Below the pieces are notes generated by a model that worked only from the letters and a program-made list of their open reading frames with translations, searched no databases and had not been told where the DNA came from. A stretch of 54,714 nt of DNA from an uncultured Bacteroidota bacterium (lineage in GTDB: Bacteria; Bacteroidota; Bacteroidia; JABEUT01): the NCBI GenBank assembly GCA_903916255.1, contig CAIWVW010000052.1:1-54714 (forward strand), written 5' to 3'. The position numbers and the translations under genes were made by a program. How positions within the stretch are numbered: position 1 is the stretch's first letter; each line of letters begins with the position of its first letter. Of the stretch, positions 904 to 9,628 are shown piece after piece.

Positions 904-1506
904 ATGCAAAAACATAACTTAAATACAACAAAAGCAGTCATATCCATTAAGAATATGATTAGCAATAGTTGCATTAAAATTGTGAAACAAGAACTGGAAA
1001 GAACAGGTTTTATAGAAGTAATCAATATTAAACTGGGAGAGGCTGAAGTGCAGTTCGATTCGCAGGTAATAAATTTAGAGGTTATTAATACTATCCTTAA
1101 ACGGGAAGGGTTTGAACTGGTAAAAGATAATGCCAGCAAACTGGTGGAACGCATTAAAAGCTGCATCATACAACATATCTTCTTTGGTAATAATGCCAAT
1201 TCCATCATCCGTAATTCCGATTATTTAAGCGAAAGCCTTGGCCATCCGTATTTACACTTAAGCAAAGTGTTTTCAGAAAAAACAGGAATGACACTGGAAA
1301 AGTACATCATCCTTATTAAAATTGAAAAAATAAAAGAGCTTATTATGTATGATGAAATTACATTAAGTGAAATAGCCTATAACCTTGGATATAGCAGCAT
1401 TCAGTATCTTAGTAACCAGTTTAAACAGATTACAGGCTACACTGTTAGCGAATATAAGGGCCTGAATAAACATGAACGGAAACCGCTCACATCCCTCCCC
1501 AATTAA
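904..1506 (+). CDS. AraC-family regulator with N-terminal HMA-like domain
   Basis: 200 residues. Residues about 10-75 resemble a heavy-metal-associated (ferredoxin-like) fold but lack the metal-binding CxxC motif. Residues about 110-190 are an AraC/XylS two-helix-turn-helix DNA-binding domain, including the IAYNLGYSS and QFKQITGYTVSEYK elements. This architecture is recurrent in Bacteroidota, and the degenerate HMA part probably senses a non-metal signal or mediates dimerisation. The gene ends 85 nt before the six-gene operon starting at 1592 and points the same way, so it is a candidate regulator of it. That link is inference. No convincing -7 box was found upstream. Confidence 0.85.
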   Translation: MQKHNLNTTKAVISIKNMISNSCIKIVKQELERTGFIEVINIKLGEAEVQFDSQVINLEVINTILKREGFELVKDNASKLVERIKSCIIQHIFFGNNANSIIRNSDYLSESLGHPYLHLSKVFSEKTGMTLEKYIILIKIEKIKELIMYDEITLSEIAYNLGYSSIQYLSNQFKQITGYTVSEYKGLNKHERKPLTSLPN

Positions 1507-1559
1507 AATCTTATAACTTTTTTATTTTAAACCATAACAACATCCGCTATGGTTACATA

Positions 1560-1567
1560 TACTTTTG
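1560..1567 (+). promoter_or_regulatory. -7 box of the PqqD/ATP-grasp operon
   Basis: TACTTTTG matches TAnnTTTG 24 nt before the ATG at 1592. It implies the operon has its own promoter, separate from the regulator gene. No clear -33 element was seen. Confidence 0.5.
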
Positions 1568-1591
1568 TATTGTCAATTTGAACATTAAATA

Positions 1592-1861
1592 ATGAGCACC
1601 ATGAAACTAAAAAAGAACTTAGCCCTTAGCGATTCGGGCTTCGTATTCGACCCAAGCACCGGAGATTCTTTTTCCACCAATCCGATAGGGCTTGAAATTA
1701 TACGTATGCTTAAAGAGGGCAAAACAGCCAATGACATCAAATCGCAAATCATCAAAACCTACATGACTGATGATGTTTCGTTCGAAAAGGACTATTACGA
1801 TTTTGTAAACATGCTAAGCAAGCACAATCTGGTAGAAGGTGTTGAAAAAGAAAAAAATTAA
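1592..1861 (+). CDS. PqqD-like protein
   Basis: 89 residues; a second possible start is ATG 1601. The sequence has the PqqD pattern: a short beta N-terminus (LSDSGFVFDPSTGDSF), a helix after NPIGLEII, then a winged-helix-like C-terminal half ending in a conserved-looking LVEG. PqqD folds serve as peptide-recognition elements in RiPP pathways, but many Bacteroidota PqqD-like proteins sit beside ATP-grasp ligases without a known precursor peptide. It is the first gene of the operon and overlaps the ATP-grasp gene, so the two are probably translationally coupled and act together. No precursor peptide gene was found nearby. Confidence 0.8.
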   Translation: MSTMKLKKNLALSDSGFVFDPSTGDSFSTNPIGLEIIRMLKEGKTANDIKSQIIKTYMTDDVSFEKDYYDFVNMLSKHNLVEGVEKEKN

Positions 1862-2891
1862 CGTAGCCGTAACCGGCCTTAATGCCATCGACAGCCCCGG
1901 TCCGGGAGTACCTGTAATAAGGGCGCTTCGCGACAGCAAACTGTTTGATGTAAGGATTATCGGATTATCCTACGAATCCCTTGAGCCTGGCATTTACATG
2001 CACGATATTGTAGATAAAACCTACCAGATACCCCTTCCATCTGCCGGAAAAGCAACCTTGATGGAACGTTTGAAATATATCAACTCGATTGAAAAACTGG
2101 ATGTGATAATACCAAACTTCGATGCGGAATTATTCAATTTCATCAAGTTGGTAGATATACTTAAAAAAGAATTAAAAATAAATGTATTTGTCCCAACCCT
2201 CGAACAATTTGAAGAAAGGCATAAATCAAACTTGCCTGAATTTGGGAAGAAGCATAAGATAAAGATTCCTAAAAGCAAACTGATTTTTAACATAAAGGAG
2301 ATTCCGGCTCTTCGTTCAGAATTTACTTATCCGGTTGTGGTTAAGGGTAAATTTTATGATGCTTCCATTGCCTATAGCCCTGAACAAGTGGCCACCTATT
2401 TTAATAAGATTAGTGCCAAGTGGGGGCTACCTATAATTATACAAGAATTTTTACACGGGCAGGAAGTGAATGTAACCGCCATTGGCGATGGTAAAGGAAA
2501 TACAATTGGTGCCGTGCCCATGCGCAAACAATACATTACCGATAAAGGCAAGGCATGGTCGGGCATTTCCATTGATGATAAAAACCTGATGAACATGACC
2601 CGCAAGCTTATCAAATCTACAAAATGGAGGGGCGGTATGGAACTTGAAATTATAAAAACAAGCGAAGGCGATTATTATTTAATTGAAATAAACCCTCGTT
2701 TCCCCGCATGGGTCTATCTTGCGGTAGGATGTGGGCAAAACCATCCGGAAGCTTTGGTAAGGCTTGCTTTGGGGCAAAAAGTGGAACCCTTTAAAAAATA
2801 TGACATCGGTAAATTATTTGTCCGCTACTCCTGGGACATGATTGTTAGCTTAGACGAATTCGAAAAAATATCAACCGTAGGTGAACTATAA
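1839..2891 (+). CDS. ATP-grasp ligase (CarB-like)
   Basis: About 350 residues. The in-frame start is GTG 1839 (or TTG 1842), overlapping the PqqD-like gene by about 23 nt. The N-terminal third is a Rossmann-like pre-ATP-grasp domain (VAVTGLNAIDSPGPG). The rest is ATP-grasp: a lysine strand VVVKG near residue 170, a QEFLHGQEVNV strand, and the ATP/Mg motif LIEINPRFPAW near residue 285. Such enzymes activate a carboxylate as acyl-phosphate and join it to an amine or thiol. With a PqqD-like partner and a PLP decarboxylase next to it, the likely product is a small amide-bonded molecule, but the substrates are unknown. Confidence 0.82.
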   Translation: MLKKKKINVAVTGLNAIDSPGPGVPVIRALRDSKLFDVRIIGLSYESLEPGIYMHDIVDKTYQIPLPSAGKATLMERLKYINSIEKLDVIIPNFDAELFNFIKLVDILKKELKINVFVPTLEQFEERHKSNLPEFGKKHKIKIPKSKLIFNIKEIPALRSEFTYPVVVKGKFYDASIAYSPEQVATYFNKISAKWGLPIIIQEFLHGQEVNVTAIGDGKGNTIGAVPMRKQYITDKGKAWSGISIDDKNLMNMTRKLIKSTKWRGGMELEIIKTSEGDYYLIEINPRFPAWVYLAVGCGQNHPEALVRLALGQKVEPFKKYDIGKLFVRYSWDMIVSLDEFEKISTVGEL

Positions 2892-2900
2892 AAATAAACT

Positions 2901-4265
2901 ATGAGCGCAAAAAAATTGCAATATGAACGCCCGGTCATTCAAAAGTTGAATGTAGGTTTAATGAACAAATTCGGAACAAGAACCGAATACACTCCGCTTA
3001 CTCATATTGATGGGAATTCTGTTCGCGACCTGCTTGGGAAATTCGGCTCCCCCCTTTTTGTAATATCTGAAAGAACTTTGCGCCGCACTTTCCGCGATGC
3101 AAACAGAGCATTTAAAACCCGTTACCCTAAAGTGCAATTTGCATGGTCCTATAAAACAAATTACGTGAATGCTGTGTGCAATGCCTTCCATCAGGAAGGC
3201 TCATGGGCAGAGGTGGTGTCGGGCTTTGAATATCAGAAAGCATTGAACAACGGAGTTCCCGGAAACAAGATTATTTTCAACGGGCCGGATAAAACAGAAG
3301 CGGAATTGAAACTTGCAATTGCAAACAATTCCATGATTCATATAGACCATTTGGATGAACTTTATTTAATAAAAGAAATAGCTGTTGAGAGCAATAAAAA
3401 GCCCCGTGTTGCTATTCGTGTAAATATGGATACGGGTGTTTACCCCATGTGGGATAGGTTCGGCTTTAATTATGAAAACGGGCAAGCCTGGGATGCTATC
3501 AATAAAATTCTGCTCAATGATAAAATGGAATTGGTAGGATTGCATAGCCACATCGGCACGTTCATGCTTACCCCAAGTGCTTATGGTATGGCCGCTTCCA
3601 AACTTTCGCACCTCGCCCTGGAAATAAAAAAGAAGTACAAAAAGAATATCCAGTATATAGATATGGGTGGTGGCTTCGCGTCGAAGAATACACTGAAAGG
3701 TTCCTATTTGCAGGGCATTGACGCATCCCCAACATTCGACCAGTTTGCCGAAAGTATTTGTACATCGATATTAAACGCAGGGTTTACAGAAACTGATTTA
3801 CCCTTATTAATTTTAGAAACAGGCCGCGCATTGATTGATGAAGCCGGTTACTTATTAGGTTCTGTCATTTCAAATAAACGCTTGTCCGATGGTAGGAGAG
3901 CCACCATATTGGATTTTGGAGTAAATATTCTATTCACATCATTCTGGTACGACCATAAAATAAGTCCGGCACAAGAGTTTAGTCAATACACCGAAGATGC
4001 AGTTCTTTACGGACCACTCTGTATGAATATTGACGTAATCCGTGAAAATATTACCTTACCTCCTCTTAAGCGTGATGACCATGTGGTTGTGCACAGTGTA
4101 GGAGCATACAATATGACCCAATGGATGCAATTTATAGCGTTGCGCCCGGCAATAGTAATGATAGATATGAAGGGTGATTCCCATATTATTCGTAAACGTG
4201 AAACGCTTGACAGTATTGAGAAAGATGAGGTGTTGCCAAAATATTTGAAAGATTTTAAATTGTAA
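2901..4265 (+). CDS. PLP-dependent amino-acid decarboxylase, fold type III (Orn/DAP/Arg class)
   Basis: 454 residues. It shows the alanine-racemase-like TIM barrel plus beta domain of group IV decarboxylases. The Schiff-base lysine is Lys85 in AWSYKTNY. HSHIGTF, the phosphate-binding DMGGGF and ETGRALIDEAG follow. The C-terminal GPLC motif and GAYN supply residues from the partner subunit, so the active site looks complete and dimeric. Substrate candidates are diaminopimelate, ornithine, arginine or a ligated derivative; nothing decides between them, so lysA is not assigned. Nine bases separate it from the ATP-grasp gene, and the next gene follows after 12 bases. Confidence 0.85.
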   Translation: MSAKKLQYERPVIQKLNVGLMNKFGTRTEYTPLTHIDGNSVRDLLGKFGSPLFVISERTLRRTFRDANRAFKTRYPKVQFAWSYKTNYVNAVCNAFHQEGSWAEVVSGFEYQKALNNGVPGNKIIFNGPDKTEAELKLAIANNSMIHIDHLDELYLIKEIAVESNKKPRVAIRVNMDTGVYPMWDRFGFNYENGQAWDAINKILLNDKMELVGLHSHIGTFMLTPSAYGMAASKLSHLALEIKKKYKKNIQYIDMGGGFASKNTLKGSYLQGIDASPTFDQFAESICTSILNAGFTETDLPLLILETGRALIDEAGYLLGSVISNKRLSDGRRATILDFGVNILFTSFWYDHKISPAQEFSQYTEDAVLYGPLCMNIDVIRENITLPPLKRDDHVVVHSVGAYNMTQWMQFIALRPAIVMIDMKGDSHIIRKRETLDSIEKDEVLPKYLKDFKL

Positions 4266-4277
4266 AAAAAGTAACGA

Positions 4278-6452
4278 GTGAAAGAACAATTGAAGTTTCT
4301 CCGCGATAGCATAGCTTGCAGTTACAGCCAGGTTTTCTTTTCAGATAACCGCTGGTTTGCTCTGCTGCTTGGAGTGGCTACTTTTGTTGACCCATACACA
4401 GGCATCAGTGGATTGCTTTGCGTAATTTTTGCGGTAATACTCGCCAAGCTATTAGGATTCAATCCAATATTAATAAGGAATGGCACATATACCTACAATG
4501 TATTGCTGGTGGGCCTTGCAATTGGATTCTATTTTAGTTTCAACCCTGCATTCTTTGTAATCCTCTTTCTTGCATCCTTCCTTACGTTGATGATAAGCGC
4601 ATGGATGGCTTCTTCGTTTGCTGCAAAAAGAGTACCGTTTTTAAGTTTGCCATTTATTTTCAGCACATGGATAATGTTATTAAGCACACGCACATTTCAA
4701 ACCATTAAACTAAGCGGGCGCATACCCGGAGCCATATACAATTGGGGTAACATTGGCGGGGCTTCCCTTCTTTCCATTTACCACAAAACAGCTGCATTTA
4801 TACCGCACCTGGCAGTAATTTATTTCAAATCAATCGGTGGAATATTCTTTCAATATAATCTTGTTTCCGGAATACTTATTACAATTGGAATACTTGTTTG
4901 TTCACGTATTGCTTTCTCTCTTTCCATCATCGGATTTATGATTGGCTACCTCTTCAGTTACTTAATTCAAGGGGATATGTCAGAATTGGAATATAGCTAT
5001 ATCGGCTTCAATTTTATTCTTTCAGCCATCGCAATTGGCGGATTTTATTTTGTGCCTTCCACCCGTTCCTATTTGCTTGCTATCATTTCTGCTCCCTTAA
5101 TTGTATTGGTGATTAGTGGCCTAGGCATTATTTCCATAAGCTACCAACTGCCGCTTTATTCGCTACCCTTCAGCTTTGTGGTGATGCTTGTTATTTATGT
5201 GTTTGAGAACCGTTACACTATCACAAAACTTCATCTGGTAGAATTTCAAAAATATTCTCCGGAGAAAAATCTATATGCTCATCACAATAATATGGAGCGC
5301 TTTAAAAATGATACATACGTCCATATTCATTTGCCTTATTATGGTGAGTGGTTTGTATCGCAAGGGCATGATGGGGACATTACGCACAAAGATGATTTTC
5401 GCCATGCATGGGATTTTGTAATTACTGACGAGACAAAAAAAACATATCGTCTGCCCGGAACCGATGTAAAAGATTTTTATTGCTATGGGAAACCCGTATT
5501 AGCGCCCGCAGCGGGACAAGTGGTGGCCATTGAAGATGGAGTGGATGATAATGTGATTGGAGATGTGAATGTTGAAAAAAATTGGGGGAACACCATCATC
5601 ATAAAGCATACCGAATTCCTTTACAGTAAATTAAGCCATATTAAAAATGACAGTTTTAAAGTCAAAAATGGCGATTATGTAAAAAAAGGTGATGTGCTGG
5701 CATTATGCGGCAGTTCGGGCCGTTCTCCTGAACCGCATCTGCATTTTCAGTTACAGTCAACCGCCTACCTGAATGCAGGAACTATTGACTACCCCATATG
5801 CTATTATCTGACCAAAGAAGATGAGAAGTATACTTTCCATTCTTTTGACAACCCGCAAGAAGGTGAAACTGTTTTGAAAGCTACCCCTACTCCATTAATC
5901 AGCCAGGCGTTTCATTTTGTACCCGGGATGAAAATGAATTTTAAAGTAACCCGTGGCGCTGAAACCACCGCTGAAAGCTGGGAAGTCTTTGCAGATTCAA
6001 CTAATGCAACGTATTTTTATTGTAAAACCACAGGGTCAGTTGCTTTCTTTACAAATAACGAAACGCTGCTTTATTTCCTGAGTTTTAGCGGCGATAAAAA
6101 TTCGCTACTCTACTATTTTTACCTTGGTGCACACAAAGTTTTGCTGGGATATTACAGCGGAGTAGAAATACATGAACCGCTTCCAATTTCAGATTTCTAT
6201 GGAGGTATTTCAAAATTCCTGCAAGATTTTACGGCTCCTTTTCATATTTACCTCAAAGCAAATTACTCGGCTAAATTTACTGATGTTGATAATGAACAAA
6301 ATCCGGGTAAGGTTAAAATTCATTCCAATGCCCAAAAGGGTTCAGGAGATAGAGGAAGGATTGATTTTGAAATGGAACTGGATAATAATATGATTAAAAA
6401 ATTTACTGCAAAGGATAACAATTTATGTATTACTGCCGAAAATATTGTTTAA
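4278..6452 (+). CDS. Urea transporter family protein fused to an M23 (LytM) peptidase domain
   Basis: 724 residues from a GTG start. Residues about 20-320 are very hydrophobic, with roughly ten membrane segments in two related halves as in the UT/urea channel family; GFNFILSAIAIGGFYFVP matches the second-half signature. Residues about 370-515 are an M23/LytM-type domain: RHAWDF (His and Asp metal ligands), PVLAPAAGQV, NWGNTIIIKH and HLHFQ with the last ligand. The final 200 residues are beta-rich and unassigned. The peptidase part would sit in the periplasm. A transporter for small amides joined to a wall-hydrolase or lipoyl-like fold is unusual. The stop overlaps the next gene. Confidence 0.8.
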   Translation: MKEQLKFLRDSIACSYSQVFFSDNRWFALLLGVATFVDPYTGISGLLCVIFAVILAKLLGFNPILIRNGTYTYNVLLVGLAIGFYFSFNPAFFVILFLASFLTLMISAWMASSFAAKRVPFLSLPFIFSTWIMLLSTRTFQTIKLSGRIPGAIYNWGNIGGASLLSIYHKTAAFIPHLAVIYFKSIGGIFFQYNLVSGILITIGILVCSRIAFSLSIIGFMIGYLFSYLIQGDMSELEYSYIGFNFILSAIAIGGFYFVPSTRSYLLAIISAPLIVLVISGLGIISISYQLPLYSLPFSFVVMLVIYVFENRYTITKLHLVEFQKYSPEKNLYAHHNNMERFKNDTYVHIHLPYYGEWFVSQGHDGDITHKDDFRHAWDFVITDETKKTYRLPGTDVKDFYCYGKPVLAPAAGQVVAIEDGVDDNVIGDVNVEKNWGNTIIIKHTEFLYSKLSHIKNDSFKVKNGDYVKKGDVLALCGSSGRSPEPHLHFQLQSTAYLNAGTIDYPICYYLTKEDEKYTFHSFDNPQEGETVLKATPTPLISQAFHFVPGMKMNFKVTRGAETTAESWEVFADSTNATYFYCKTTGSVAFFTNNETLLYFLSFSGDKNSLLYYFYLGAHKVLLGYYSGVEIHEPLPISDFYGGISKFLQDFTAPFHIYLKANYSAKFTDVDNEQNPGKVKIHSNAQKGSGDRGRIDFEMELDNNMIKKFTAKDNNLCITAENIV

Positions 6453-7705
6453 TGGTTGGTTGTCTCCTTATCCTGTGTTCTGTGATAAGGGCCCAGGACA
6501 CGCTGACATCTGCTGAGGTGGAATCACGCTCTTCTATGTTTTTTACGCAGGGCAACTGGGATGCACTTATCCGTTATGGCAACACTGCATTAAGTAAAGG
6601 GTTTGATTATTATTACTTGCGCTATCGCCTCGGCGTAGCTTACTTTTCAGAAAAGAAATACAGACAGGCACAAAATCATTTTGAAAAAGCTATTACTTTT
6701 AATTCGACAGATGAGGCTATGGAGTACCTATACTACTGCTATCTTTATACTGGGCAGTATGAAAGAGCCAGATGGTTAAGCAAATCATTCTCTTCAGCTG
6801 CTGTATCTTATACCGGGAGCGATAAACTGAAATCATTTTCATATGCAACCCTGGAAGCTGGGGTGGGAACTACAGACAGTACAAAGCAGTTTGATAATTA
6901 CTACTATATGCAGGCAGGTGCAGGGTTTTATGTAAAAAACAGGTTCTCCATGTATCATGCGCTAACATATTTTACACAAACAGATTTCAGGGGTATTACA
7001 AATCAATTGCAATATTATTTAAATGGTAAGGTGCCATTGAAAAATGACTGGTCAATAGCCATAGGAGCCCAACCTATTCTCCGCGATTATTCAGCTACAA
7101 CATACCCAATAGCACCCACTCTTATCAGAATACCTTCAAGGCTTCATCCGCCTCCGAATCTTGATTCGAGCAGGTTTGTGCCTAAAGAAGATACGGTGCA
7201 TGGCCCCGTTAAAACGAAACTTGATTTTGTTTCTGCGGTTTCAATCACCAAGACAACAGGTAATTTCGACTTCACATTAGGTACGGCTATTGGCTCATTA
7301 GATACCACTACTCAATATGAACAATATATTGGAATTTCCTGGTATCCTATGGGCAACAATATATTCTCTATTAATGAAATAGCGTATTTGCATACTGAAA
7401 CCTATTATCAGCATATACACTTTGCACTTAACTCATCCATAACATTTGCTCCCACGCAAAAATTTAGTTTAACTGCATCTTACCTGGCCAATACCGGTGG
7501 CAATCTTGTAGAAAGTGATGGCTATATTGTGAGCGGAACTCCGGATTTTATGTTAACACGGTTTTCTTTACTTGCCGATATTGCTGTATCAAAAAGTATT
7601 AGTATATACGGGGCTTACCAGCATCAGGACAATATAGAATTCCATCAGCACTGGCCATTTCAATATAATTTATACGTAATCGGACTTAAATACATACCCA
7701 AATGA
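6425..7705 (+). CDS. TPR plus outer-membrane beta-barrel protein
   Basis: 426 residues. The N-terminal MYYCRKYCLMVGCLLILC stretch ending in RAQ fits a signal peptide with a basic n-region, which favours ATG 6425. The alternative ATG 6452 overlaps the upstream stop as TAATG but lacks positive charges. Residues about 35-125 contain TPR-like units (YLRYRLGVAYFSEKKYRQAQNHFEKA). From about residue 140 on there are repeated amphipathic aromatic beta strands, as in a barrel of a dozen or so strands, ending in YVIGLKYIPK. It probably inserts in the outer membrane and could provide passage for the operon's product or substrate. It overlaps the following TPR gene by four bases. Confidence 0.75.
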   Translation: MYYCRKYCLMVGCLLILCSVIRAQDTLTSAEVESRSSMFFTQGNWDALIRYGNTALSKGFDYYYLRYRLGVAYFSEKKYRQAQNHFEKAITFNSTDEAMEYLYYCYLYTGQYERARWLSKSFSSAAVSYTGSDKLKSFSYATLEAGVGTTDSTKQFDNYYYMQAGAGFYVKNRFSMYHALTYFTQTDFRGITNQLQYYLNGKVPLKNDWSIAIGAQPILRDYSATTYPIAPTLIRIPSRLHPPPNLDSSRFVPKEDTVHGPVKTKLDFVSAVSITKTTGNFDFTLGTAIGSLDTTTQYEQYIGISWYPMGNNIFSINEIAYLHTETYYQHIHFALNSSITFAPTQKFSLTASYLANTGGNLVESDGYIVSGTPDFMLTRFSLLADIAVSKSISIYGAYQHQDNIEFHQHWPFQYNLYVIGLKYIPK

Positions 7706-8325
7706 AAAAAGTAAAATCAATTATCGTTGCAGGAACATTCATTTTAATGAGTGCAATTAATTCATATTCGCAGAGCAATGCAACTGCCGATGCATTTTCT
7801 AAAAGCTATCAGAGTGAAACAAAATCAGATTTTAAGGGGGCTATTGAAAACCTTAAACCTGTTTATGCCAAAGGTTCGTATGAAATGAACTTACGCATGG
7901 GCTGGCTCTACTACAAAGCAGGCTCCTATAAAGAATCCCAGACCTATTATCAGTTGGCTATTGATTTAAAACCAAATGCCATCGAAGCTAAATTCGGATA
8001 TGTTTATCCTGCTTATGCATTGGGAAATATGAATGAGGTAATTGCCCAGTATACCAAAATTCTTACAATAGACCCGCAAAATACAACGGCTAATTATCGG
8101 ATGGGCATGATATCCTATGACAAGAAAGATTACCAGGTAGCTTACAAATATTTTGAAAAAGTAGTAGGTCTTTATCCATTCAGCTATGATGCGCTTATCA
8201 TGTATGCATGGTCGAGTTATAGAGTTGGAAAAAAAGATGATGCAGCCATTTTATTTAATCGCGTACTGTGCCTTTCTCCCGGCGACAAATCAGCACTGGA
8301 AGGGTTATCCATGCTGAAGAAATAA
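7702..8325 (+). CDS. Periplasmic TPR protein
   Basis: 207 residues with a cleavable signal peptide (MKKVKSIIVAG, cut after SYS or SYSQ). About four TPR units follow, for example MRMGWLYYKAGSYKE-like and YRMGMISYDKKDYQVAYKYFEK segments. It is last in the operon, with its ATG overlapping the previous stop (ATGA). It is likely a periplasmic scaffold pairing with the TPR/barrel protein. It has no catalytic motif, and a gene symbol cannot be given. Confidence 0.8.
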   Translation: MKKVKSIIVAGTFILMSAINSYSQSNATADAFSKSYQSETKSDFKGAIENLKPVYAKGSYEMNLRMGWLYYKAGSYKESQTYYQLAIDLKPNAIEAKFGYVYPAYALGNMNEVIAQYTKILTIDPQNTTANYRMGMISYDKKDYQVAYKYFEKVVGLYPFSYDALIMYAWSSYRVGKKDDAAILFNRVLCLSPGDKSALEGLSMLKK

Positions 8326-8329
8326 AATA

Positions 8330-9628
8330 TTATTTAGTTTGCAGGAGTAACTTTTCTGCCACCTGCCCGAATTTCCATACATCTTCAAAAGAGTTGTAAA
8401 GCGGCACAGGAGCCAGTCTTATTACATTCGGGTTTCGCCAATCACAAAATACGCCCGCTTTGGTGAGTGCATTATAAAAATCTTTTCCTATTCCTTGTGC
8501 AATAATGGATAGCTGGCATCCTCTTTGTGCAGGGTCTATAGGTGTAATAATTTCCAGTTTCAGGTTTTTGTCTTTTATCTTTTCGTTTATGCGGTTAATG
8601 ATGAACTCAAGATAGGCAGTCAGCATCAAACTTTTTTTGCGCAAGGGAGGCATGCCTCCAGCTTCGGTAAAAATATCTACCGATGCTTTATGCGCAGCCA
8701 TAGATAAAACAGGCGCATTGCTTAATTGCCAACCTTCTGCACTTTTCATAGGGATAAATTTCTTGTCCATGATAAAGCGGGTTTTCTTATCATATCCCCA
8801 CCAGCCGCCTAAGCGCAACAATCGTATATTCTTAACATGACGCTGATTTATATATGCACCAGCCACAGCCCCCGGGCCCGAATTAAAATATTTGTAAGTG
8901 CACCAGCACGCAAAATCAACATCCCAATCGTGGAGTTTTACTTCTATATTTCCGGCGGCATGCGCCAAATCGAATCCACATAAAATACCTGCTTTATGGG
9001 CTGCTGCTGTGATGCGCGGCATATCCAATACTTGCCCCGTGAGATAATTAATTCCACCAAAAAGCACCAACGCAATTTCATCCGCGTTTTTATTAATAGT
9101 TTTAATAATATCCTCTGTGCGCAAAGTATGTTCCCCCTTGCGCGGAGCGACTTCTATAATAGCATCAGCCGGATTATAACCATGCAATTGTACTTGAGTC
9201 TGTAACGCATAGTTATCGGAAGAAAATGCATTCGATTCGCAAACAATTTTATAGCGCTTTCCTTTCGGCCGGTAAAATGAAACCATTAACAGATGCAGGT
9301 TCAGCGTAAGCTGGTTCATAATAATTACTTCATCGTCCTTGGCGCCCATCAATTTTGCAACAGGCTTTGTGAAGATTTCATGGTAAGAATACCAGGGGTT
9401 ATGTGCATCAAAATGCCCTTCGGAAGCCAGTTTTGCCCAATCGTCCAGTTCCACCTGAATGTATTTTGATACACTTGCAGGCTGCAACCCCAGCGAATTT
9501 CCAACAAAATATAAAGCATCGCTGCCTTTATATTGCGGGAATAAAAACTTCTTACGGAACTTTTTTAAAGGGTCTTTTTTATCTTGTTCTTTTGCAAAAG
9601 CAAGTGAATTAGTAAATTTCATAGCCAT
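8330..9628 (-). CDS. kynU: Kynureninase
   Basis: 432 residues, full length for the family. Kynureninase cleaves L-kynurenine or 3-hydroxykynurenine to (3-hydroxy)anthranilate and alanine using PLP. Visible blocks: YFVGNSLGLQP near residue 40, GHFDAHNPWYSYHE near 71, FDLAHAAGN with Asp220 and His223, and CWCTYKYFNSGPG with the Schiff-base Lys246. The start follows the SDR stop directly (TAAATG), with an alternative ATG two codons in. It is cotranscribed with the upstream SDR gene. No kynurenine monooxygenase or 3-hydroxyanthranilate dioxygenase is in the window, but nadC lies at 31597. The role in NAD synthesis versus tryptophan catabolism is open. Confidence 0.93.
   Translation of the reverse strand: MAMKFTNSLAFAKEQDKKDPLKKFRKKFLFPQYKGSDALYFVGNSLGLQPASVSKYIQVELDDWAKLASEGHFDAHNPWYSYHEIFTKPVAKLMGAKDDEVIIMNQLTLNLHLLMVSFYRPKGKRYKIVCESNAFSSDNYALQTQVQLHGYNPADAIIEVAPRKGEHTLRTEDIIKTINKNADEIALVLFGGINYLTGQVLDMPRITAAAHKAGILCGFDLAHAAGNIEVKLHDWDVDFACWCTYKYFNSGPGAVAGAYINQRHVKNIRLLRLGGWWGYDKKTRFIMDKKFIPMKSAEGWQLSNAPVLSMAAHKASVDIFTEAGGMPPLRKKSLMLTAYLEFIINRINEKIKDKNLKLEIITPIDPAQRGCQLSIIAQGIGKDFYNALTKAGVFCDWRNPNVIRLAPVPLYNSFEDVWKFGQVAEKLLLQTK

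Follow-up and report, generated by a model that had tools for sequence, protein, structure and literature searches.

Gene content and signals of the locus

The window, i.e. the whole analysed stretch of 54,714 nucleotides from an uncultured Bacteroidota bacterium (contig CAIWVW010000052.1), carries six consecutive ORFs on the forward strand (Table 1), with overlaps of 23, 28 and 4 nt at the first, fourth and fifth junctions and gaps of 9 and 12 nt at the second and third. The Pfam domains, in the same order, are PqqD, ATP-grasp, Orn/DAP/Arg decarboxylase (group IV), UT plus Peptidase_M23, TPR and TPR. The ORFs, their junctions and the domain assignments agree with the first-pass annotation of this DNA, which had described a six-gene, single-strand operon with tight junctions; translation of the first gene probably starts at a conserved ATG at position 1601. 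The −7 box noted in that annotation is present as well. However, boxes of this form are no more frequent in the window than expected by chance (65 seen versus 69.7 expected), so that the box alone is weak evidence for a promoter. A stronger signal, which had escaped the first reading, is the 21-bp direct repeat located further upstream.

Table 1. Features of the operon and its upstream region
Feature	Coordinates	Strand	Basis
HMA-like + AraC HTH protein (probable operon regulator)	904..1506	+	HTH_18 E 1e-13; weak copper-chaperone-like N-terminus
Putative operator, 21-bp direct repeat TTATAAC-N16-ATAAC	1511..1538	+	Spacing and counts of the degenerate form over loci
−7 box, Bacteroidota-type TAnnTTTG, TACTTTTG	1560-1567	+	Sequence; position plausible only
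PqqD-like protein	1592..1861	+	Pfam PqqD 32.7 bits (cut-off 23.4)
ATP-grasp ligase, PRK12767/2pn1-like	1839..2891	+	ATPgrasp_Ter and ATP-grasp_3 above cut-off
Alanine-racemase-fold PLP decarboxylase with its own active-site signature	2901..4265	+	Closest structure 7kh2; residue conservation
UT-fold channel (residues 1-311) + M23 metallopeptidase (~355-500) + unnamed beta-rich domain (~500-724)	4278..6452	+	Pfam, model, Foldseek
Outer-membrane beta-barrel with N-terminal signal and TPR	6425..7705	+	AF2 model, Foldseek
Exported TPR protein	7702..8325	+	TPR_2 E 8.5e-18; hydrophobic N-terminal segment; 90/115 loci

Scans for sigma-70-type promoters and terminators gave results at chance level, and a tRNA was the sole match in a scan for RNA elements. 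PADLOC profiles yielded zero matches, and a role in anti-phage defence was rejected. A kynureninase gene (8330-9628) converges on the end of the operon at a distance of 4 nt; given that it adjoins the operon only here and in one other locus (L031), we consider it to lie outside the system.

Distribution and co-inheritance

Among 395 sampled Bacteroidota genomes, the ATP-grasp gene was matched (E 1e-20 or better) in 35, of which 34 encode true orthologues; the match in the remaining genome (G369) is a weak paralogue with 29% identity, and the operon is absent from that genome. UT domains over the cut-off were found in 44 of the same genomes. The UT-M23 fusion is present in exactly the 34 genomes with a true ATP-grasp orthologue (M23 part at E 1e-44 or better), including one (G005) in which UT and M23 occupy adjacent frames. 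The other 10 of the 44 UT genomes encode standalone UT proteins of ~300 aa. The co-occurrence of the fusion and the ligase over the 395 genomes corresponds to a Fisher p of ~2e-48, uncorrected for shared descent. Thus, ~9% of the sampled genomes, from many families, carry a strictly paired set, which suggests that the set does something worth keeping.

Across 115 loci containing the ATP-grasp gene, 112 have the decarboxylase, 102 UT-M23, 96 a called PqqD gene, 90 the TPR protein and 76 the TPR-barrel, while 16 further loci have a shorter barrel devoid of TPR; the gene order is conserved. The 115 ATP-grasp sequences form 72 groups at 90% identity and 22 groups at 70%, and the pairwise distances of the operon genes correlate with those of the ATP-grasp protein (r 0.81-0.94). 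The gene set is a unit that recurs across the phylum Bacteroidota. This neighbourhood survey, of the kind envisaged in the first-pass annotation, disposes of the notion that the genes occur together only in near-identical genomes, the carriers being spread over the Bacteroidota sample. Within the genus of the window, the operon occurs patchily, in 2 of the 11 genomes, a set that includes many incomplete ones, and a search of plasmids retrieved a single distant match (28%), in Streptomyces. On one contig (L140, from G124), the operon region is present twice, close to either end, and in one copy the UT-M23 gene is broken by a frameshift; the double copy may be an assembly overlap.

The operon is divisible into an enzyme module (PqqD, ATP-grasp, decarboxylase) and an envelope module (UT-M23, TPR-barrel, TPR). 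For eight of the loci with the enzyme module but without an adjacent UT-M23 gene, whole genomes were searched, and UT-M23 was found in seven of the eight. In six of these (G405-G408, G410 and G411; split genomes hereafter), the envelope module forms a separate locus and both modules are kept, and in G412 the operon is contiguous, the locus seen first having merely ended at a contig end. The eighth genome, in which UT-M23 was not found, is represented by an assembly of 2.5 Mb and of unstated completeness. Hence, the two modules can lie apart on the chromosome, but so far one has not been seen to occur without the other among the genomes in which both could be traced. In L098, a transposase/integrase-like ORF (384 aa, read from the translation) lies 3' of the enzyme module and is perhaps the cause of the separation. 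In L095, the decarboxylase gene is followed by a CRISPR-array-like stretch with Cas1-like (313 aa) and Cas2-like (111 aa) ORFs, also read from translations, which apparently occupies the usual place of the envelope module.

No description of this gene combination was found in the open-licence literature searched, in line with the earlier remark that it does not correspond to a nameable pathway.

The ligase and its PqqD-like partner

Residues N9, A11, G16, F19, P21, G24, S26, N30, G33, D67 and F71 are invariant in the PqqD-like protein, and E268, E270, E283, N285 and R287 of the ATP-grasp protein are retained in at least 97% of the 115 sequences. The pairing calls to mind the maturation of a ribosomally synthesized peptide (RiPP), with PqqD binding the leader, the ATP-grasp protein and the decarboxylase modifying the peptide and a cytoplasmic M23 domain cutting it beside the exporter, a layout likened to that of peptidase-containing ABC transporters. 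PqqD-fold proteins often bind leader peptides, and the M23 domain is indeed predicted to be cytoplasmic (see below). However, the ATP-grasp protein falls outside the RimK-like graspetide class, peptides would not fit through the narrow pore of a UT-type channel and none of the 115 loci contains a conserved small ORF, consistent with the first-pass annotation, in which a precursor peptide gene was not visible either. We rejected RiPP maturation for lack of such an ORF and regard it as quite improbable. No acyl carrier protein was found among the recurrent genes of the loci.

A decarboxylase with an altered pocket

The closest solved structure to the operon decarboxylase is 7kh2, the N-citrylornithine decarboxylase FigC (E 8e-57, 196 bits, compared to 145 for the best DAPDC). 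K85, C374 (catalytic), M375, I377, W349, Q407 and Q410 are conserved in 111 of the 111 sequences, W408 in 109, T346 and Y350 in 108 and M409 in 104, with W349, W408, Q407 and Q410 being specific to the operon group. Hallmarks of DAPDC/LysA are an acidic residue after the catalytic Cys and an Arg in the specificity helix, whereas ornithine, lysine and arginine decarboxylases have Asp at both sites (PMC7857480). The separate LysA of the same genome, 27% identical to the operon enzyme, has E and R at these positions; by contrast, the operon group has Met after the Cys (111/111) and Thr in the helix (108/111), and T346 and W349 stand where an ornithine, lysine or arginine decarboxylase would have its helix Asp. 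Hence, the suggestion in the first-pass annotation that the enzyme acts on basic amino acids appears unlikely, the residues used by such enzymes being missing, and roles in lysine biosynthesis or polyamine formation were rejected on the basis of the active-site residues and the separate LysA. The same signature distinguishes the family from LysA, with which it is confusable by profile score.

The resemblance to FigC is greater, albeit incomplete. M375, T346 and Y350 are equivalent to FigC M355, T327 and Y331, respectively, but H357, R387 and N389 of FigC, proposed to contact citrate (PMC7857480), are replaced by I377, Q407 and M409, so that the Met and Tyr of the citryl-amino-acid decarboxylases FigC and SbnH are found in the operon enzyme and the citrate contacts (H357/K347, R387, N389) are not. 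Judging from these residues, the pocket does not look built for DAP, ornithine, lysine, arginine or citryl amino acids; the substitutions look suited to a conjugated, largely uncharged substrate. For BtrK, FigC, SbnH, AcsE and MccE alike, the amino acid residue to be decarboxylated is already attached to something (PMC7857480).

A urea-transporter fold fused to an M23 peptidase

The AlphaFold model of the UT-M23 protein (pLDDT 89.8) shows the folds of UT and LytM, together with a C-terminal region rich in beta structure. The UT domain is well supported (Pfam E 5e-59; Foldseek dvUT E 3e-14), and the M23 part was matched to LytM by Foldseek. As in other M23/LytM endopeptidases, the metal and catalytic residues are intact (H370, D379, H454, H487 and H489, all 94/94, including the HxH motif), but the domain differs from them in being joined to a UT channel, at the end predicted to lie in the cytoplasm, and in the additional C-terminal beta-rich domain. 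The channel shares with dvUT the fold, the Phe slots and Gln18, but is unlike it in the fusion to M23, in the lack of accompanying urease and in the pore: the equivalent of dvUT Glu187 is Ala or Gly, and both Thr are changed to Ser. Specifically, standalone Bacteroidota UTs have Thr123, Thr295 and Glu/Gln188 in 8/8 cases, whereas the fused ones have Ser at 123 in 83/94, Ser at 295 in 69/94 and Ala at 188 in 73/94, so that the pore is altered in its urea-contact side chains.

Uptake of urea or amides through UT, coupled to trimming of the wall by M23 in peptidoglycan turnover, is what the two Pfam families would suggest at face value, and M23 relatives indeed carry signal peptides. Yet urease, encoded in 12 of the 395 genomes, is present in 6 of the 10 genomes with a standalone UT but in only 1 of the 34 with UT-M23, and the pore residues as well as the topology run counter to such a role. 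On account of the pore residues and the urease distribution, we consider urea uptake largely refuted and very improbable. Similarly, the passage of urea-like amides assumed in the first-pass annotation is doubtful, with the urea-contact residues replaced and urease missing in 33 of the 34 host genomes.

Loops on the side of the N- and C-termini contain 6.4 K+R, versus 2.7 on the opposite side, in 92 of 94 fusion proteins; the same bias holds for standalone UTs (8/8), and the loop positions match the intracellular and extracellular ligand sites of human UT-B (PMC10541013). No transmembrane stretch was detected after residue 311 of UT-M23. Given the charge bias, the homology and the lack of a transmembrane stretch beyond residue 311, we predict a cytoplasmic M23 domain, which is not where a wall hydrolase would be expected. 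In G005, a single-contig genome, M23 is a separate ORF which overlaps the UT gene by 4 nt and lacks a signal peptide; this fits a cytoplasmic location, although the split could be a frameshift. A cytoplasmic M23 would be unusual, because the nearest standalone relatives mostly have signal peptides, and this disagreement between topology and relatives is the main conflict in the evidence. One M23 relative without a UT domain, L195, has N-terminal transmembrane helices; its genome (G119) also carries the operon.

Proposed biosynthesis and export

The barrel model (AF2, pLDDT 88.3) consists of a signal helix, TPR helices and 14 long strands, with Foldseek matches to FadL, OmpG and BcsC. Like BcsC-type proteins, it combines an N-terminal TPR with an outer-membrane barrel, but it has only six or seven TPR helices and 14 strands and is encoded outside a polysaccharide locus. 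Both the barrel and the TPR protein carry export signals.

We propose, with a probability of roughly 0.4, that the two modules constitute a biosynthesis-and-export system under one operator, in which conjugation and decarboxylation of an amino acid are followed by release and export. The operon, its conservation across the phylum, the strict pairing of the modules, the operator common to both, the retained catalytic residues and the changes in decarboxylase pocket and UT pore are observations, whereas the reaction order, the release by M23, the transport direction and the product are inferred. In this proposal, the amide (or ester) bond between an amino acid and a second molecule would be made by the ATP-grasp protein, for which the PqqD-like protein would be a partner or docking subunit, and the PLP decarboxylase would strip the alpha-carboxyl from the amino acid while it is conjugated, following the logic of BtrJ/BtrK and FigA/FigC. 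The UT-M23 protein would sit in the inner membrane, where the cytoplasm-facing M23 domain would cut the conjugate and hand a small product to the UT-fold channel beside it. This product would then cross the periplasm with the TPR protein and exit via the TPR-barrel. Conjugation before decarboxylation is suggested by the precedent of BtrK, FigC, SbnH, AcsE and MccE together with the neighbouring ligase, and the narrowness of UT-type pores implies that the exported product would have to be very small. Synthesis in the cytoplasm followed by passage across both membranes, through the UT fusion and the barrel, had already been surmised in the first-pass annotation and fits the domain content. A role of M23 as a periplasmic, wall-opening component of a trans-envelope pipe is not supported, because the domain is predicted to face the cytoplasm.

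Pathways combining an ATP-grasp ligase with an alanine-racemase-fold decarboxylase are of a kind already known. BtrJ of butirosin biosynthesis is an ATP-grasp ligase. As in that pathway, a ligase of this type would be followed by an alanine-racemase-fold decarboxylase acting on the conjugated amino acid (BtrK; PMC7857480), but the acyl carrier protein BtrI is missing, with the PqqD-like protein and the envelope module encoded instead. The FigA/FigC pair (FslA/FslC, rhizoferrin) shares decarboxylation after conjugation and the Met after the catalytic Cys, but employs an NIS synthetase in place of the ATP-grasp protein. To our knowledge, the exit route consisting of UT-M23 and a barrel has no counterpart in any other system. 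If the proposal is correct, the operon would encode a natural-product pathway whose exit is unusual, a urea-channel fold having been re-purposed and tied to a hydrolase.

Probable regulator and operator

The HMA-like AraC protein encoded just upstream is the probable regulator of the operon. Its orthologues are found in 32 of the 115 loci, and their distances track those of the ATP-grasp protein (r 0.93). Exact ATAAC-N16-ATAAC pairs occur upstream of PqqD in 22 loci, with essentially none at neighbouring spacers; the degenerate form is present in 50 of the 115 loci, versus 1.7 expected, and in 28 of the 32 with the AraC-HMA gene. The window's own genome (3.74 Mb) contains a single operator site. 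AraC itself uses two direct half-sites spaced 21 bp, and both elements of AraC-type regulation, an HTH protein and a 21-bp direct-repeat operator, are present here. In three split genomes (G405, G406 and G407), operator sites of varying strength precede both modules, and Bacteroidales-type loci have the variant AAATTTYATAC-N10-AAATTTCGTAAC. A lesser excess of degenerate half-site pairs was observed at a period of 25 (12 of 115 loci). Such a dedicated operator offers a direct handle on the inducing signal and on other members of the regulon. In the window's own genome, a paralogue of the regulator (L208:4624-5282) has a TGTAAC 21-bp direct repeat just 5' of its start, suggesting that the AraC-HMA subfamily uses this layout generally.

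In other lineages, ECF/anti-sigma/Metal_resist genes or histidine kinases lie upstream of the operon instead, with an ECF sigma factor, an anti-sigma factor and a Metal_resist/LTXXQ protein in seven loci. Together with the HMA-like N-terminus of the regulator, these genes raise the possibility of a metal-linked product, either a metallophore or a metabolite of metal stress, which would be made under the control of the HMA-AraC protein (or of an ECF/metal-sensor regulator in some lineages) and would act together with multicopper oxidases that the cell secretes. One such oxidase is encoded between the two modules in L059, and its homologue is preceded by an operator-like site in a different genome; moreover, FigC, SbnH and AcsE are siderophore decarboxylases (PMC7857480). 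The HMA signal is weak, however: the match in the L077 orthologue (E 3e-4) is under the curated cut-off, and of the two Cys of the CxxC site, all orthologues retain the last but only some the first, which is Ser in the window's clade. Furthermore, neither a TonB receptor nor a metal transporter is recurrent in the loci, the FigC citrate contacts are missing and the regulator paralogue adjoins a T9SS ice-binding-like protein and a hybrid histidine kinase; as these are not metal genes, a metal role deduced from the paralogue was rejected. Overall, we consider a metal-related product unlikely, though worth keeping in view.

Candidate regulon

Operator-like sites were also sought elsewhere in the genomes at three mismatches, a level at which control counts were similar in some genomes; we therefore give weight only to genes with both such a site and adjacency to the operon. 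On this basis, possible additional members of the regulon are a T9SS multicopper oxidase (site in G416, homologue in L059), an arylsulfotransferase-like T9SS protein (sites in G406 and G407; beside the operon in L082, L087 and L099) and an HGSNAT/Acyl_transf_3 acyltransferase (site in G406; near the operon in L072, L123, L126 and L129 and near the envelope module in L223). A small membrane protein has a site in G407 and lies beside the operon in L106, and a YHYH T9SS protein has a site in G419. The candidate members hint at surface redox or metal chemistry. Extending the biosynthesis-and-export proposal, the UT channel with its cytoplasmic M23 might release and export a decarboxylated conjugate for use by surface-attached oxidases or transferases under the same control, such as the multicopper oxidase and the arylsulfotransferase-like protein, to which it could be a substrate, a cofactor or a ligand for metal; the whole would then represent a new class of small-molecule system, and we offer this extension as a doubtful but reasonable guess.

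A reading centred on secretion, which we hold to be rather improbable, makes the exported molecule a cofactor or modifier of the T9SS proteins that share the operator or adjoin the operon (arylsulfotransferase-like, multicopper oxidase, YHYH and FG-GAP). The sites before T9SS-tailed proteins in several genomes, the arylsulfotransferase-like and multicopper oxidase neighbours and the FG-GAP proteins are consistent with it, but T9SS cargo is common in these genomes, the number of three-mismatch sites is near the control in some of them and the set of genes varies from genome to genome. The FG-GAP proteins (~280 aa, with a T9SS tail) are encoded upstream of PqqD in 11 loci (L122-L138), the proteins of which look Ignavibacteria-like.
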